Shown piece after piece: positions 5,816 through 44,084 of a DNA stretch of 64,000 nucleotides. Both the position numbers and the translations under genes were made by a program. Source of the stretch: Gemmatimonadota bacterium (GTDB taxonomy: Bacteria > JBHIER01 > G020348925). How positions within the stretch are numbered: the first letter of the stretch is position 1; every line of letters starts with the position of its first letter. A model generated the notes under the pieces. That model had not been told where the DNA came from and searched no databases. It saw nothing but the letters and a program-made list of their open reading frames with translations. The DNA lies in the NCBI GenBank assembly GCA_020348925.1, contig CP070758.1, positions 2,906,406 through 2,970,405 of the forward strand, written 5' to 3'.

Positions 5816-8335
5816 TTAAAAACGTAAATCCATACCCAATCGAATTCGGCGGCCGAGATCAAGGGCGCCCGGGTCTTTTAGGATCCCTCCTGGTATACCC
5901 TGCGCGTCGACCCACAACATGTTCTTCGAATCAAGTGCGTTGCGTAATTCTAACAAAAAAGAGACTGTTATATTGTCGAAGGAAAAATCCTTGTTGACTT
6001 TGAGGTCCAAATAATCGGTGGACTCCATTCGCGCATCGTTTGGCTTTGTATAATATCCGGTGTCCTTTGTATATGGTAAGGGACTGTTCCATTGCCACAG
6101 GAGACTGATGCCCCAATCGTCCTCCTTTCGAACGTCGAGATCCACAACGAGCTTATGCCTTTGATCCCAGGAGAGAAAGTATTCCCCGATGGGAACTTGA
6201 TAGCCTTTATTCAGCCAGTCGTATCCCTCCCGCTCGCTGGAGCCTGTGCCCTGTGCCATCATGTATGTGTAGCTTATTTTACCCGCGAGAAATTTTCCGT
6301 GCCGTTTCTCCAGATACGTTTCGACTCCGTGGATGTTCACGTGAGCCACATTGACATACTGAGTGTAGCCCCCTTGTCCATCCTCGTTCTGAGGGAGATA
6401 CGTCTTCGTATCGATGAGATTGGAAACATCTTTATTGAAGAGCGTGATATTGAAGAGGTAGTTTTCCTGAAAGCGGTGTTTGAAGCCTGCCTCGAAGGCG
6501 ATGGTTTGGGCCGGTTTCAAATCCGGGTCCCCGGCCAGCGGCGAGAAGCCGTCGGCGTTGTACTGCAAATTTGTATAGAGATACTTGAAGGAAGGGATCT
6601 GAAAAAAGTAGCCGTAGTTGAGATGGACTTGGTCGTTTTCAGTGATGGCGATCGATACTCCCAAACGGGGGCTGATTTGTTGTTTTAAACTTGCGGCCAC
6701 GCGTTTGTTATTTTTAACCACGAAACCGCCTTCATCACTCTGGATGGTCGTATCCTGCTCAACGGCCGGACGGGAAGCAGTAGGATTGAAGAAGTCGTAT
6801 CGGAGTCCGAGATTGGCGACCAATCCCAGATATTCGATCTTGTCCTGAAGGTATATCGATCCCTCTTTCGGGTAGTAATGGTATTCTGTATCGTAAATGT
6901 TATATTGAGGAAAACGCCAGTCTGAGGTTTCGGTTGTGTCGTGTTTGACATCTTTCAGGTATAAGTAATAGTGGATGAATTCAAAGCCTGATTTGAACTG
7001 GTGATGAGGTGTGATCTGACTTGTGCCTTCCACTTTGGCTGTGGTGATGACCTCCTTGTGATCCTGCCACCACATCTTATCTTCGGATATGCGCCACTCT
7101 CCGTCGGTGTCCACGCTGGGGAAGTCGTATTCAAGAGTTCCCTTTCCAAAGACCGACTTGAGGACAAAGAACTGGCTCAGCTTCACGGTATAGAACGTAT
7201 GGGGATTGAGCGTATGGGTGAGGATCGTCGCCACCTGGTAGCTCTTTTTGCTCTGTGGAGGAAGACCATCAAGGTTCTCCTTCCAATAGTACCACCAGTG
7301 TTCGTATTCTATCCAGTCCCACATGGAGATCAGGCCCTGTAAGTTCAACTTGAGGGCATCGGATAAGCGGTAGGAGATCTTACCCAAACCGCTCTGTTTC
7401 TTGGTGTCCGGATCGGCGAAGACCTGGCTCTTGTAACCGAGCACCTCTCTTCGCCAGCGGGCAAAGGGATACTGGATGTTCCAGGAGAGGAGGTAACTGG
7501 CTCTGTGATTCACCGGTCCACCGAGAAAGAGCTCACCGTAATTCTCGTCGTCAACAGGACGATCCTTAAAGTAGTTATGATGGCCGGTTAATCGGTCGGA
7601 ATAGACGGAAAGCTGACCGTGATGCTTCGATCCGCCCTCCTTGGTGACCACATCGACCACACCGGACATGGCCCGACCGTATTCGGCGTTAAAGCCGCCG
7701 GTTTGGATACTCACTTCAGTGATCGCGTTTTGCGGGATCTCTGATCCGGCCTCGCCTTCAAGGGCTTCTTGAATCGGAATGCCATCGACCAAATAGATGA
7801 CTTCGGATTTTCTTCCCCCGCGGAAGTGTCCCCCCGCCACACCGGGTTGAATATCGACCACCTCGTGAAAGGACCGGACAGGCTTGTGGTTCAGGTCGTG
7901 ACTTGAGACGAAGTGCGTGGAGGACGTTATGTCCTTTTGAATGAGAGGCTGTTCCGCTGAGACGGTGATCTCCTCGAACTCGAGAACAGTGGGCGATAGG
8001 GCGAAATCCAACGTCGTCCGCAGATCGATACTTATTCTCACGTTCTCTCTGGTCTCTGCTACAAATCCCATCATACTTGCCCGGACCTTATACATTCCCG
8101 GGGGGACGTTGTTGATGAGAAAGAATCCCTTCGGATCGACTATGGTGCCGAAGTTCGTTCCCAGGATGACAATATTCGCGCCTATCAACGACTTCCCATC
8201 ATCCTTGTTGGTGACCGTTCCGGCGAGCGTTCCCGTGACTCCGGCAAAGACATGATCGAGGAAGCCGGTGCTCAGGATACAACACAAAGAGATCGTACTC
8301 CATAGTACTGTCTTTTTTATAGCGTCGACGCTCAT
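5816..8335 (-). CDS. TonB-dependent outer-membrane receptor
   Basis: This 839-residue protein has the standard order: signal peptide, CarboxypepD_reg-like domain (about 32-115; GTLAGTVTNKDDGKSLIGAN and MYKVRASMMGF), a TonB-box-like segment (EEITVSAEQP), a plug domain (about 125-235; GGRKSEVIYLVDGIPIQE, TGGFNAEYGRAMSGVVDVVTKEG) and a beta-barrel to the C-terminus, which ends in Phe (GMDLRF). It transports an unknown large or scarce substrate through the outer membrane using proton-motive force via TonB. It is second in the operon, 19 bases after the metalloprotease-like gene and 13 before the lipoprotein gene, so these probably form one surface complex. Substrate cannot be told from sequence. 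Confidence 0.92.
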   Translation of the reverse strand: MSVDAIKKTVLWSTISLCCILSTGFLDHVFAGVTGTLAGTVTNKDDGKSLIGANIVILGTNFGTIVDPKGFFLINNVPPGMYKVRASMMGFVAETRENVRISIDLRTTLDFALSPTVLEFEEITVSAEQPLIQKDITSSTHFVSSHDLNHKPVRSFHEVVDIQPGVAGGHFRGGRKSEVIYLVDGIPIQEALEGEAGSEIPQNAITEVSIQTGGFNAEYGRAMSGVVDVVTKEGGSKHHGQLSVYSDRLTGHHNYFKDRPVDDENYGELFLGGPVNHRASYLLSWNIQYPFARWRREVLGYKSQVFADPDTKKQSGLGKISYRLSDALKLNLQGLISMWDWIEYEHWWYYWKENLDGLPPQSKKSYQVATILTHTLNPHTFYTVKLSQFFVLKSVFGKGTLEYDFPSVDTDGEWRISEDKMWWQDHKEVITTAKVEGTSQITPHHQFKSGFEFIHYYLYLKDVKHDTTETSDWRFPQYNIYDTEYHYYPKEGSIYLQDKIEYLGLVANLGLRYDFFNPTASRPAVEQDTTIQSDEGGFVVKNNKRVAASLKQQISPRLGVSIAITENDQVHLNYGYFFQIPSFKYLYTNLQYNADGFSPLAGDPDLKPAQTIAFEAGFKHRFQENYLFNITLFNKDVSNLIDTKTYLPQNEDGQGGYTQYVNVAHVNIHGVETYLEKRHGKFLAGKISYTYMMAQGTGSSEREGYDWLNKGYQVPIGEYFLSWDQRHKLVVDLDVRKEDDWGISLLWQWNSPLPYTKDTGYYTKPNDARMESTDYLDLKVNKDFSFDNITVSFLLELRNALDSKNMLWVDAQGIPGGILKDPGALDLGRRIRLGMDLRF

Positions 8336-40786: not shown

Positions 40787-42976
40787 ATGAAATTCCGATT
40801 CGAGAAACGTAAGAACGGTGGTTCCAGACCACCACTTTCAGAACTGGTGGTCTGGGCATTCTGTCTTGGTGTGATTTTCACAGGCCCCGTGATGTCCCAA
40901 GAGGGGAGTGGGCCAAAGATTGACGTGTCTCAGGAGATGTGGGACTTTGGCACCATTCGACGGGGTGAGGAAGTGACCTGTCCCCTTGTTATTGCAAACA
41001 TGGGAAAAGGGACCTTGCATATCACACAGGTACGGAGCAGTTGCACCACCTGCAGTGTGGTGAAAGGGTACAAAGAAAGACTCGGACCGGGTGAGTCGAC
41101 CGATGTCAAGGTGACTTTTCGGGCCGAGGGCAGAAAAGGGAGGATCACCAAGACAATCTATATCGATTCGAACGATCCTGACCAGCCTCGGACAGTCTTT
41201 CGCGTTACAGGAATTGTCGAAAAGAGCGAAGCTCCCGAAATCGTCGTCGATCCCAACCCGTGGTACCCCGATTCCATTACGACCGATCCGCGCAGCGGTG
41301 GAGAGCTCCTCATCACCAATGACGGTTTGACCGACCTCATCGTGAAAAAGATGGAGGCGGCGGGCTGTGTGGTCAAGGAGACGTCAATACCTGCCATCGG
41401 CCCTGGGGATTCTGCTGTGGTGCATGTCTCGTTCAATCTGAAATCCATGGTATGGGAGGGTGAACGGTATGTGATGTTTCATTCGAATGACCCCTACCAG
41501 CGGGAGCTGAAAGTAAAGATTAGGGGAGATGTGGTCTCGACTGGTTCCCAGGACACGACGCGCGTCTGTTCCCTGATTTTCCTGTCAAAGGACTGTACGG
41601 AGTGCGCCTATGTCATGAGTCAGGTCGTTGCTCCTTTGCAGAAGATGTATCCGGGGCTCCAGATCAGAACGATAGCCGTCGATGATCCACACAACTACAA
41701 TCTCTTGACGAACCTTGAAAAAAAGTACAAAGACACGAGTAACGAAATCCCTGTTCTATTCATCGATACCTTTGTCTTAGGGGGAAGAAAGGAGATCGAG
41801 AGGGATCTCGTGGGGCGAATTACAGGCTGTATTGAGAAGGGCGGATGTGCGTTTCCTGAATATGACGAGGAAAAGCCTTCCGGGCGGAAATCCGTGAAAA
41901 AACCGATTTACATGGCATATTTCTATCAGCCTGGTTGTAAGCAATGTGATCGCGTCAACCATATGTTGAAAAGTTTGCGAAAGCGTTATGAGAAGTTGCA
42001 TATCAAAGAGTTCAATATCGGAACAATAGAGAATAAGCTCTTGAATGAATCAATCGGCGAGCTTTTAAAAGTACCGGATAAAAAGCGGCTGTTGACTCCG
42101 GCCTTGGTGGTTGGGGATCAGTACTTCGTTCAGCATGATATTACCGACCAGCGGGTCCAAAGTGCAGTCGAAGGCTTCCGGGATACGGGGAGTATGTGCT
42201 CCTGGGATGAAGCAAAGGATCTCCAAGCTGAAGCCAAAATGAGCATCATTGAGCGTTTCAAAGCTTTTGGCCCAATCACTGTTCTCCTGGGCGGTCTCGT
42301 TGATGGGGTGAACCCCTGCGCGTTCGCAACAATAATCTTTTTTATATCATATCTTACCTATATCGGGCGCAAGGGGAAAGATCTGCTTTACGTGGGTCTT
42401 GCTTTTACGGTGGCTGTTTTTATGACGTACCTTCTGGTCGGTTTCGGTATCTTTAATTTCATTCAGTCCCTGAAGATTTTCGATGTTGTGAGCATGATCA
42501 TCTATGTCGTAACCGCAGCCTTGGCGTTCATTCTTGGCACTTACAGTGTCTATGATATGCTGAAGATCAGACGAGGTCGCGTGAGTGAAATCACGCTTCA
42601 GCTGCCGAACTTTCTCAAAAAGCGTATCCATAAAACGATTCGGAAGAGAGCCAGAATGCGGCGTTACGTGTTGGCCGCGTTTATCACCGGATGGATTGTG
42701 TCGCTGTTAGAATTGTTCTGTACGGGACAAGTGTATCTGCCCACGATTGCTTTTGTAACCGGTGTTCCCGAATTACGGCTCCACGCCTTTTATTATCTAG
42801 TATTGTACAACCTCATGTTCGTTCTGCCTCTCTGCATTGTTTTTGGCCTGACGTACTACGGGACGACTTCGGAACAGATCGCCGGCTGGATGAAGCGACA
42901 TATTATTGCAATGAAAGCAGCGTTGGCGATGTTCTTTTTCTGTCTTGGCGGATTTTTGTTGTCCGTCATTTTTTAA
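40787..42976 (+). CDS. Fusion of two DUF1573 domains, two thioredoxin-like domains and a DsbD/CcdA-like membrane domain
   Basis: Residues 1-38 are a signal peptide with a long basic start. Residues about 45-142 and 150-250 are two DUF1573 Ig-like domains (WDFGTIRRGEEVTCPLVIANMGKG). About 258-355 and 372-470 are thioredoxin/glutaredoxin-like domains with redox motifs Cys270-x-x-Cys273 (KDCTEC) and Cys384-x-x-Cys387 (PGCKQC). About 490-729 is a six-to-eight-segment membrane domain like DsbD/CcdA, with the buried redox cysteines Cys511 (NPCA) and Cys645 (LFCTG). One chain can therefore take electrons from cytoplasmic thioredoxin through the membrane and pass them along two periplasmic domains. 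Known DsbD uses a different domain order and a single C-terminal thioredoxin. Substrate unknown. Confidence 0.85.
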   Translation: MKFRFEKRKNGGSRPPLSELVVWAFCLGVIFTGPVMSQEGSGPKIDVSQEMWDFGTIRRGEEVTCPLVIANMGKGTLHITQVRSSCTTCSVVKGYKERLGPGESTDVKVTFRAEGRKGRITKTIYIDSNDPDQPRTVFRVTGIVEKSEAPEIVVDPNPWYPDSITTDPRSGGELLITNDGLTDLIVKKMEAAGCVVKETSIPAIGPGDSAVVHVSFNLKSMVWEGERYVMFHSNDPYQRELKVKIRGDVVSTGSQDTTRVCSLIFLSKDCTECAYVMSQVVAPLQKMYPGLQIRTIAVDDPHNYNLLTNLEKKYKDTSNEIPVLFIDTFVLGGRKEIERDLVGRITGCIEKGGCAFPEYDEEKPSGRKSVKKPIYMAYFYQPGCKQCDRVNHMLKSLRKRYEKLHIKEFNIGTIENKLLNESIGELLKVPDKKRLLTPALVVGDQYFVQHDITDQRVQSAVEGFRDTGSMCSWDEAKDLQAEAKMSIIERFKAFGPITVLLGGLVDGVNPCAFATIIFFISYLTYIGRKGKDLLYVGLAFTVAVFMTYLLVGFGIFNFIQSLKIFDVVSMIIYVVTAALAFILGTYSVYDMLKIRRGRVSEITLQLPNFLKKRIHKTIRKRARMRRYVLAAFITGWIVSLLELFCTGQVYLPTIAFVTGVPELRLHAFYYLVLYNLMFVLPLCIVFGLTYYGTTSEQIAGWMKRHIIAMKAALAMFFFCLGGFLLSVIF
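40818..40855 (+). promoter_or_regulatory. Competing hairpins in the first codons of the redox fusion gene
   Basis: CCAGACCACCA (40824-40834) and TGGTGGTCTGG (40845-40855) are perfect 11-base inverted arms with a 10-base loop. The first arm can instead pair with GGTGGT (40818-40823) just upstream, through ACCACC (40828-40833). The two pairings exclude each other, as in an attenuator or a start-site thermosensor. They lie 31-69 bases after the A of the start codon, so they could influence translation initiation. Visible in sequence; function is inference. Confidence 0.45.
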
Positions 42977-42989
42977 GGGAGATGAATCG

Positions 42990-44084
42990 ATGATGAATGT
43001 TCACCATAAAATATGCGTGGCCTTCCTGTGCACTTGGTTCTGGCTAATATTCTGTGCCCTTTCCCAGGGCCATTCCGATCCTCTTTTCGTGTCCAGAGCC
43101 GATACGACGGGGTGTGAGGGCAAGTGGTTGATATTTTCGATATACGCCGATGCCCTCTTTCCGGATGACGAGCTGGAGTTCGATATGGAGAGTGCCCCTG
43201 AAGGGGCACTGCTTGAAAACCTTGGTAAATGTGGGTGACCGGTGAGCTCTATCCGCTGGGAGGCGGAATTCACGCTTCAAGGGCAAGATGCAGTTGCCGG
43301 TTTATACGAAGTCGTTTTTTATGTTTTCGATCAGTATGGAGGAATGGATAGCCATACCATGTCCATTGAAATTGTAGGAGGTACTCCCATTGCCGGATTT
43401 ACGGGCTCTCCCCTCATCGGGTGTGTGCCTTTGAGGGTTGACTTTACGGATCAGTCCAGCATGAGTCCCACGAGTTGGTCGTGGAGCTTTGGTGATGAGG
43501 ACTCGAGCAGCCAGGAGCATCCATCGCACACGTACAGTTTTCCCGGTACGTACGAGGTGACTTTATCCGTCAGGAACGTGTGCGGTTCGGATGATGAGAT
43601 CAAAAACAATTATATCACCGTCGGTGCGGCTCCGGTGGCCGGGTTCTCCGGCTCTCCAACAGAGGGGTGTATGCCCTTGAGGGTGGACTTCATCGATGAG
43701 AGCAGCGGGAATGTGACCGGTTGGTCCTGGAGCTTCGGCGATGGGGATTCAAGCGCCCAGCAGAATCCGTCGCACACGTATGACAGCCTTGGAACGTACA
43801 CCGTTACTTTAATTGCAAGCAACACATGTGGCTCCGACGAGGAGAGTGCCCCGGCTTTCATCGTGGTCTCCTCCTGTGCAATCCGGGGTGATGTGAACAG
43901 CGATGGGGATGTCGATCTTCTGGACATTATTACCACAGCCAATCACATACTGGGAATCGTGACCTTAGAGGGAGATGCCCTGTGGGCCGCCGATTGTAAC
44001 GGTGACGGTGATATCGATCTTCTCGATCTTATTCGTATTGCCAATGTCATCTTAGGACTTGGATCATGTGCCCCCGTGGATTAA
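42990..44084 (+). pseudogene. Interrupted secreted Ig-like / PKD / PKD / dockerin protein
   Basis: ATG 42990 (SD AAGGGAG) starts a signal peptide and an Ig-like region, but the frame meets TGA at 43236-43238 (after LGKCG) and then runs open in the same frame to 44084. Across the stop the text continues as one putative-Ig/cadherin-like domain (AGLYEVVFYVFDQYGG). Two PKD domains follow (FTGSPLIGCVPLRVDFTDQSS, FSGSPTEGCMPLRVDFIDESS, each with WSWSFGD) and a dockerin (GDVNSDGDVDLLDII, ADCNGDGDIDLLDLI). It ends at the dockerin without a sorting tail. GTG 43242 has no good ribosome site, so an independent product is unlikely. Nonsense mutation, sequencing error or readthrough are all possible. It starts 13 bases after the redox fusion gene. 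Confidence 0.75.

Follow-up and report, generated by a model that had tools for sequence, protein, structure and literature searches.

A fused DUF1573–thioredoxin–membrane protein as a candidate single-chain thiol conduit related to CcdA and DsbD

The gene located on the plus strand at positions 40787–42976 of the window (the whole 64,000-nucleotide stretch of DNA analysed here) encodes two DUF1573 domains, two thioredoxin (Trx) domains and a six-helix CcdA/DsbD-like membrane domain in one polypeptide chain. As a reasonably probable explanation of this combination we favour a single-chain reductive thiol conduit, which would end at the first DUF1573 domain (DUF1573-1) and a periplasmic target. 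DUF1573 is common, and to our knowledge no function has been assigned to it; fusion, co-location and a selenocysteine (Sec) that is always found at the same position now suggest a role for this domain that can be tested. The conduit family itself appears to form a branch of the DsbD/CcdA superfamily which is widespread but escapes recognition by Pfam.

Domain anatomy and redox cysteines

The open reading frame (729 amino acids) is intact, and the strand opposite to it is interrupted by stops. The set of domains reported for it in the earlier note was borne out by the reading frame itself, Pfam, AlphaFold2 and profile comparison. All features of this gene described below lie on the plus strand. 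A hydropathy scan marked an N-terminal hydrophobic signal or anchor at residues 17–35 (40835–40891), which coincides with a model helix (18–32). The Pfam family DUF1573 (PF07610) matched the protein in two stretches with an E-value of 9.1e-26 and 90.2 bits versus the gathering score of 26.1. DUF1573-1 (residues 43–144, 40913–41218) is a beta sandwich of the ASH/HYDIN type, for which Foldseek returned HYDIN and CEP192, and it carries C86-T-T-C89 (41042–41053) at the place of the CxC/UxC motif, as defined by the alignment of relatives and by a motif survey. DUF1573-2 (residues 150–249, 41234–41533), assigned from Pfam and the domain table, has no such motif. In the AlphaFold2 model built with 41 relatives, pLDDT was about 95 for DUF1573-1 and for both Trx folds and about 80 for the membrane part; DUF1573-2, the alignment of which is shallow, was modelled poorly.

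Both Trx domains scored under the Pfam cut-offs, with a Glrx-like match at 2.3e-5, and were delineated by the AlphaFold2 model, Foldseek and the domain table. Trx1 spans residues 258–348 (41558–41830) with CTEC at 270–273 (41594–41605), while Trx2 spans residues 371–464 (41897–42178) with CKQC at 384–387 (41936–41947) and P438 in front of a strand. The model and Foldseek agree on a beta-alpha-beta-alpha-beta-beta-alpha core with CxxC at the start of a helix. As a pair these domains matched the tandem-Trx proteins PDO (1a8l and 2ayt) and the N-terminal domain of AhpF (5h29), which likewise contain two consecutive Trx folds but differ in domain packing (rmsd 12–14 Å), the window protein being, moreover, membrane-bound. 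C384 and C387 are kept in at least 90% of 23 aligned relatives. The positions 270/273, 384/387, 511 and 645 were given correctly in the earlier note, yet its total of six redox cysteines was an undercount, which left out C86/C89, the pair that tells most about the protein, and a further pair, C348/C354, at the end of Trx1.

The next gene (42990–44084, +) starts about 14 bases past the conduit gene and encodes a secreted PKD/dockerin-like protein with an in-frame TGA at 43236–43238 (NLGKCG-TGA-PVSS), which marks either a nonsense mutation or Sec in a motif of the CGU type. A paralogue of this gene was not found in the genome, nor was a convincing hairpin near the TGA.

Relation of the membrane domain to CcdA and DsbD

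The membrane domain (residues 486–728, 42242–42970), delimited by models and profile–profile comparison, was also modelled alone and formed six long helices (pLDDT 83.8, pTM 0.80). Cys511, a part of NPC (42317–42319), occupies the break of transmembrane helix 1, and Cys645, a part of FCTGQ (42719–42721), lies in helix 4. Both belong to the residues invariant in 23 relatives, together with L504, D506, N509, P510, A512, F513, T646, G647, Q648 and others. An unrelated transporter devoid of paired buried cysteines was the outcome that could have overturned the original proposal; what the model contains is a cysteine pair in helices 1 and 4.

The profile of these 23 relatives was compared by hhalign with that of 25 CcdA/DsbD domains, giving a probability of 96.9 and an E-value of 1.6e-10 over 209 columns. 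C511 was aligned with the CcdA cysteine in SPC, and C645 with the one in TPC. The alignment score was 74.4 versus at most 39.7 for block-shuffled and at most 18 for reversed profile controls. A Pfam search of the window protein with PF02683 (DsbD) gave no match, the membrane model had no significant match in the PDB by Foldseek, and a profile search of PDB sequences with this domain returned none. Since Foldseek finds nothing in the PDB, the evidence of homology to CcdA comes from the profiles and from the pair C511 and C645; since PF02683 does not match, the domain is, judging from its sequence, a distant relative within the DsbD/CcdA superfamily rather than a member of that Pfam family. It resembles the CcdA/DsbD transmembrane domain (PF02683) in having six helices, a cysteine that follows proline in helix 1 and a cysteine in helix 4, but differs from it by a signature of its own (DGxNPCAFATIIFF and CTGQxYLPT) and by the long, basic loop that connects helix 3 to helix 4. 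The basic character of the loops that follow helices 1 and 3 is consistent with an N-terminus placed outside, with the Trx domains outside as well.

DsbD, as is well established, is likewise a single chain in which a membrane cysteine pair is linked to a Trx domain and to a redox domain of the Ig-like type. The window protein, however, has no C-terminal gamma domain, and its Ig-like part is DUF1573 of the ASH type and not nDsbD. In place of the nDsbD domain, eight helices and C-terminal Trx of DsbD proper it has six helices and both Trx domains on the N-terminal side, so that the domain order was rightly described as unlike the n-beta-gamma order of DsbD. With CcdA homology and an aligned cysteine pair, the idea that this single chain is a conduit similar to DsbD and CcdA gains support at the level of sequence.

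Fusions, neighbourhoods and the DUF1573 motif

Members of the membrane family were detected in 52 of 386 sampled genomes (E 1e-20), and 32 loci were found in public genome contigs of Atribacterota, Omnitrophota, Elusimicrobiota, Chloroflexota, Brocadiaceae and others. Their architectures include Trx-TM, Trx-Trx-TM, DUF1573-Trx-TM and DUF1573-Trx-Trx-TM, as well as UshA-like or HEAT parts preceding Trx-TM. Some of these proteins were among the seeds of the models used for the domain table behind this list; independently of it, DUF1573 was confirmed by Pfam above cut-off in nine loci (L012, L026, L043, L046, L051, L069, L073, L093 and L095). The architecture is not a one-off: a search for it recovered the exact layout in a close twin, L073, which is 62% identical in the membrane part and in which DUF1573-1 is cut short, either at the end of the contig or by a frame that is broken, and also in L041, where the first Trx is without CxxC. 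Nearly every member has Trx2, which directly adjoins helix 1, and Trx1 is optional. DUF1573 is absent from some members, and on the tree its presence changes, by gain or loss, at least six times.

Co-location was registered from both sides. A separate DUF1573 gene lies near 12 of the 38 unfused conduit loci, where well under one was expected, nine of these 12 being related Atribacterota and hence not independent; in L024, for instance, the order is Trx-TM, redoxin, Trx, DUF1573. Conversely, a conduit gene was found in six of 59 regions around free DUF1573 versus 0.23 expected, and in the remaining 53 none was found; the neighbour statistics of both kinds are uncorrected for relatedness. UshA-like domains, which belong to a family with known CxU selenoproteins, precede the same Trx-membrane chassis in L010 and L043 and, by eye, in L090 and L091 (NCBIfam supports the assignment for two members). 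In Kiritimatiellota a 1433-aa protein (L049, 857–5158) joins HEAT repeats to this chassis. The selenoprotein TsoB, listed in PMC13188914 as rhodanese/DsbD fusion-like, is by this name another Sec-type redox module joined to a DsbD-like part; it contains rhodanese instead of DUF1573 and is likened here by description only.

In relatives the motif aligned with C86/C89 reads SCGC, SCEC or SCDC; the CTTC of the window protein preserves both cysteines with one residue inserted relative to CxC. Among 64 free-standing DUF1573 domains, drawn from matches in 241 sampled genomes, 51 have CxC, 12 have UxC encoded with an in-frame TGA, and one has another variant, which means that CxC or UxC is kept in 63 of 64. 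Every one of the 12 TGAs falls on the first cysteine of CxC. From this exchange of Sec and Cys at one position we argue that this cysteine is a reactive nucleophile, and the replacement in some free-standing versions suggests that DUF1573 may itself be a redox switch. DUF1573-1 is matched by the OS_HP2 (seleno)protein family NF041425 with 75.3 bits, i.e. under the curated cut-off of 100, but differs from this DUF1573 selenoprotein family in having no Sec and in being fused to Trx and membrane domains. Read-through of TGA codons upstream of family members revealed no Sec in fused proteins. Reviews already tabulate DUF1573 with Sec in UGC, giving no function (PMC9312934, PMC13188914), and in the open-access literature searched the domain is named in three papers only, in two of them as a selenoprotein entry. 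DUF1573-type matches are abundant in this genome (65), and therefore not presence alone but motif and position can serve as an argument. Several open reading frames of 1000–3700 aa in the same genome carry many DUF1573-like repeats.

The three modules of the fusion are also encoded by separate genes at another locus of this genome (L066), in the order CcdA (PF02683), TlpA-like CGPC protein, DUF1573(Sec), rhodanese and a DoxX/MauE-like gene, where the TlpA, rhodanese and DoxX names were assigned from sequence by eye. Its free DUF1573 (6643–8085) reads VRSS-U-GCTAALL across an in-frame TGA (UGC form) and is a selenoprotein candidate, the motif SSUGCTA matching SSCTTCS of the window protein. In distinction from the fusion, the CcdA is ordinary and Sec replaces Cys. 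The genome possesses Sec machinery, namely tRNA-Sec and SelB (396 bits). A hairpin past the TGA, short and with GU in the loop, was considered as SECIS and rejected (z from −0.15 to −0.6). Genes for a sigma factor and for an anti-sigma factor of the zinc-finger type, named partly by eye, stand ahead of the cluster.

Proposed electron route and alternative readings

Based on the homology to CcdA/DsbD one can assume that reductant would flow outward from cytosolic thioredoxin, which would pass electrons to the membrane pair C511/C645 and from there to CKQC of periplasmic Trx2. Trx2 is the likely first acceptor, because it abuts helix 1 and is almost always present; Trx1, being optional, with DUF1573 outermost, is likely an extension. 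The next steps would lead to CTEC of Trx1 and then to C86/C89 of DUF1573-1, a terminal redox module that would reduce some periplasmic target. The window protein may thus be seen as the fused form of a CcdA, thioredoxin and DUF1573 set, which exists as separate genes in other genomes and at L066. We infer the direction of flow, the succession of the steps and the place of DUF1573 at the end; for the membrane and for Trx the steps follow from homology, and that to DUF1573 is less certain. More tentatively, and with somewhat less conviction than the conduit itself, DUF1573 may act generally in the periplasm as a thiol/selenol redox module, for which CcdA-like conduits of a dedicated family would supply the reductant. 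If the same chassis also serves UshA-like domains, periplasmic redox domains of the Sec type would have a reductive pathway of their own, so far without a name, across many uncultured phyla.

Within the same conduit DUF1573 might be a passive docking or spacer domain near a client protein, with its cysteines forming a structural disulfide. The ASH/HYDIN/PapD-like fold seen by Foldseek, which is usually a binding scaffold, the lack of CxC in DUF1573-2 and the CTTC of the window copy are consistent with this, but a structural disulfide would not be expected to contain Sec, which occupies the first position of the motif in 12 of the 64 free domains, one of them in this genome, and we regard passivity as rather unlikely. 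DUF1573 is probably an active redox module and not a passive neighbour, and its tie to thiol-electron transfer, proposed earlier from a single fusion, now draws on fusions in several lineages, on Sec at the motif and on the neighbouring genes of the unfused loci. CcdA and TlpA-like genes (CcdA/ResA) serve cytochrome assembly in other bacteria, and the protein could be a dedicated reductant for c-type cytochromes with DUF1573 binding the apocytochrome. The CcdA-TlpA-DUF1573 order of the split locus would fit, but no cytochrome assembly gene was noticed beside the window gene or in the unfused loci L024, L034 and L192, and we consider such a role very improbable.

We likewise give very little credence to an ArsG-type transporter for efflux of metalloids or organometals, in which Trx and DUF1573 would keep the substrate or thiols reduced. 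The ArsG model does match 28 of 41 relatives (best 1.4e-8) and the window protein with an E-value of 0.018; however, with the ArsG permease model NF040495 the latter gained 14.4 bits versus the curated cut-off of 200, the CcdA profile match is stronger, and ArsG has its own cysteines near the CcdA positions. Since the ArsG model also matches the two plain CcdA genes of this genome (47 and 40.6 bits), its match was rejected as evidence of transport, and the reductive conduit remains the reading that we prefer.

Two observations concern arsenic-related genes as such. At L067 (1916–6816) CcdA and several small proteins resembling thioredoxin are clustered with an Acr3-like transporter and a second permease, all named by eye; this may be an arsenic locus that has a thiol conduit of its own. 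The ArsG-family permeases L223–L237 have two conserved cysteines (ISPCP and FCP) close to where CcdA has them, and this family too may therefore carry out thiol chemistry.
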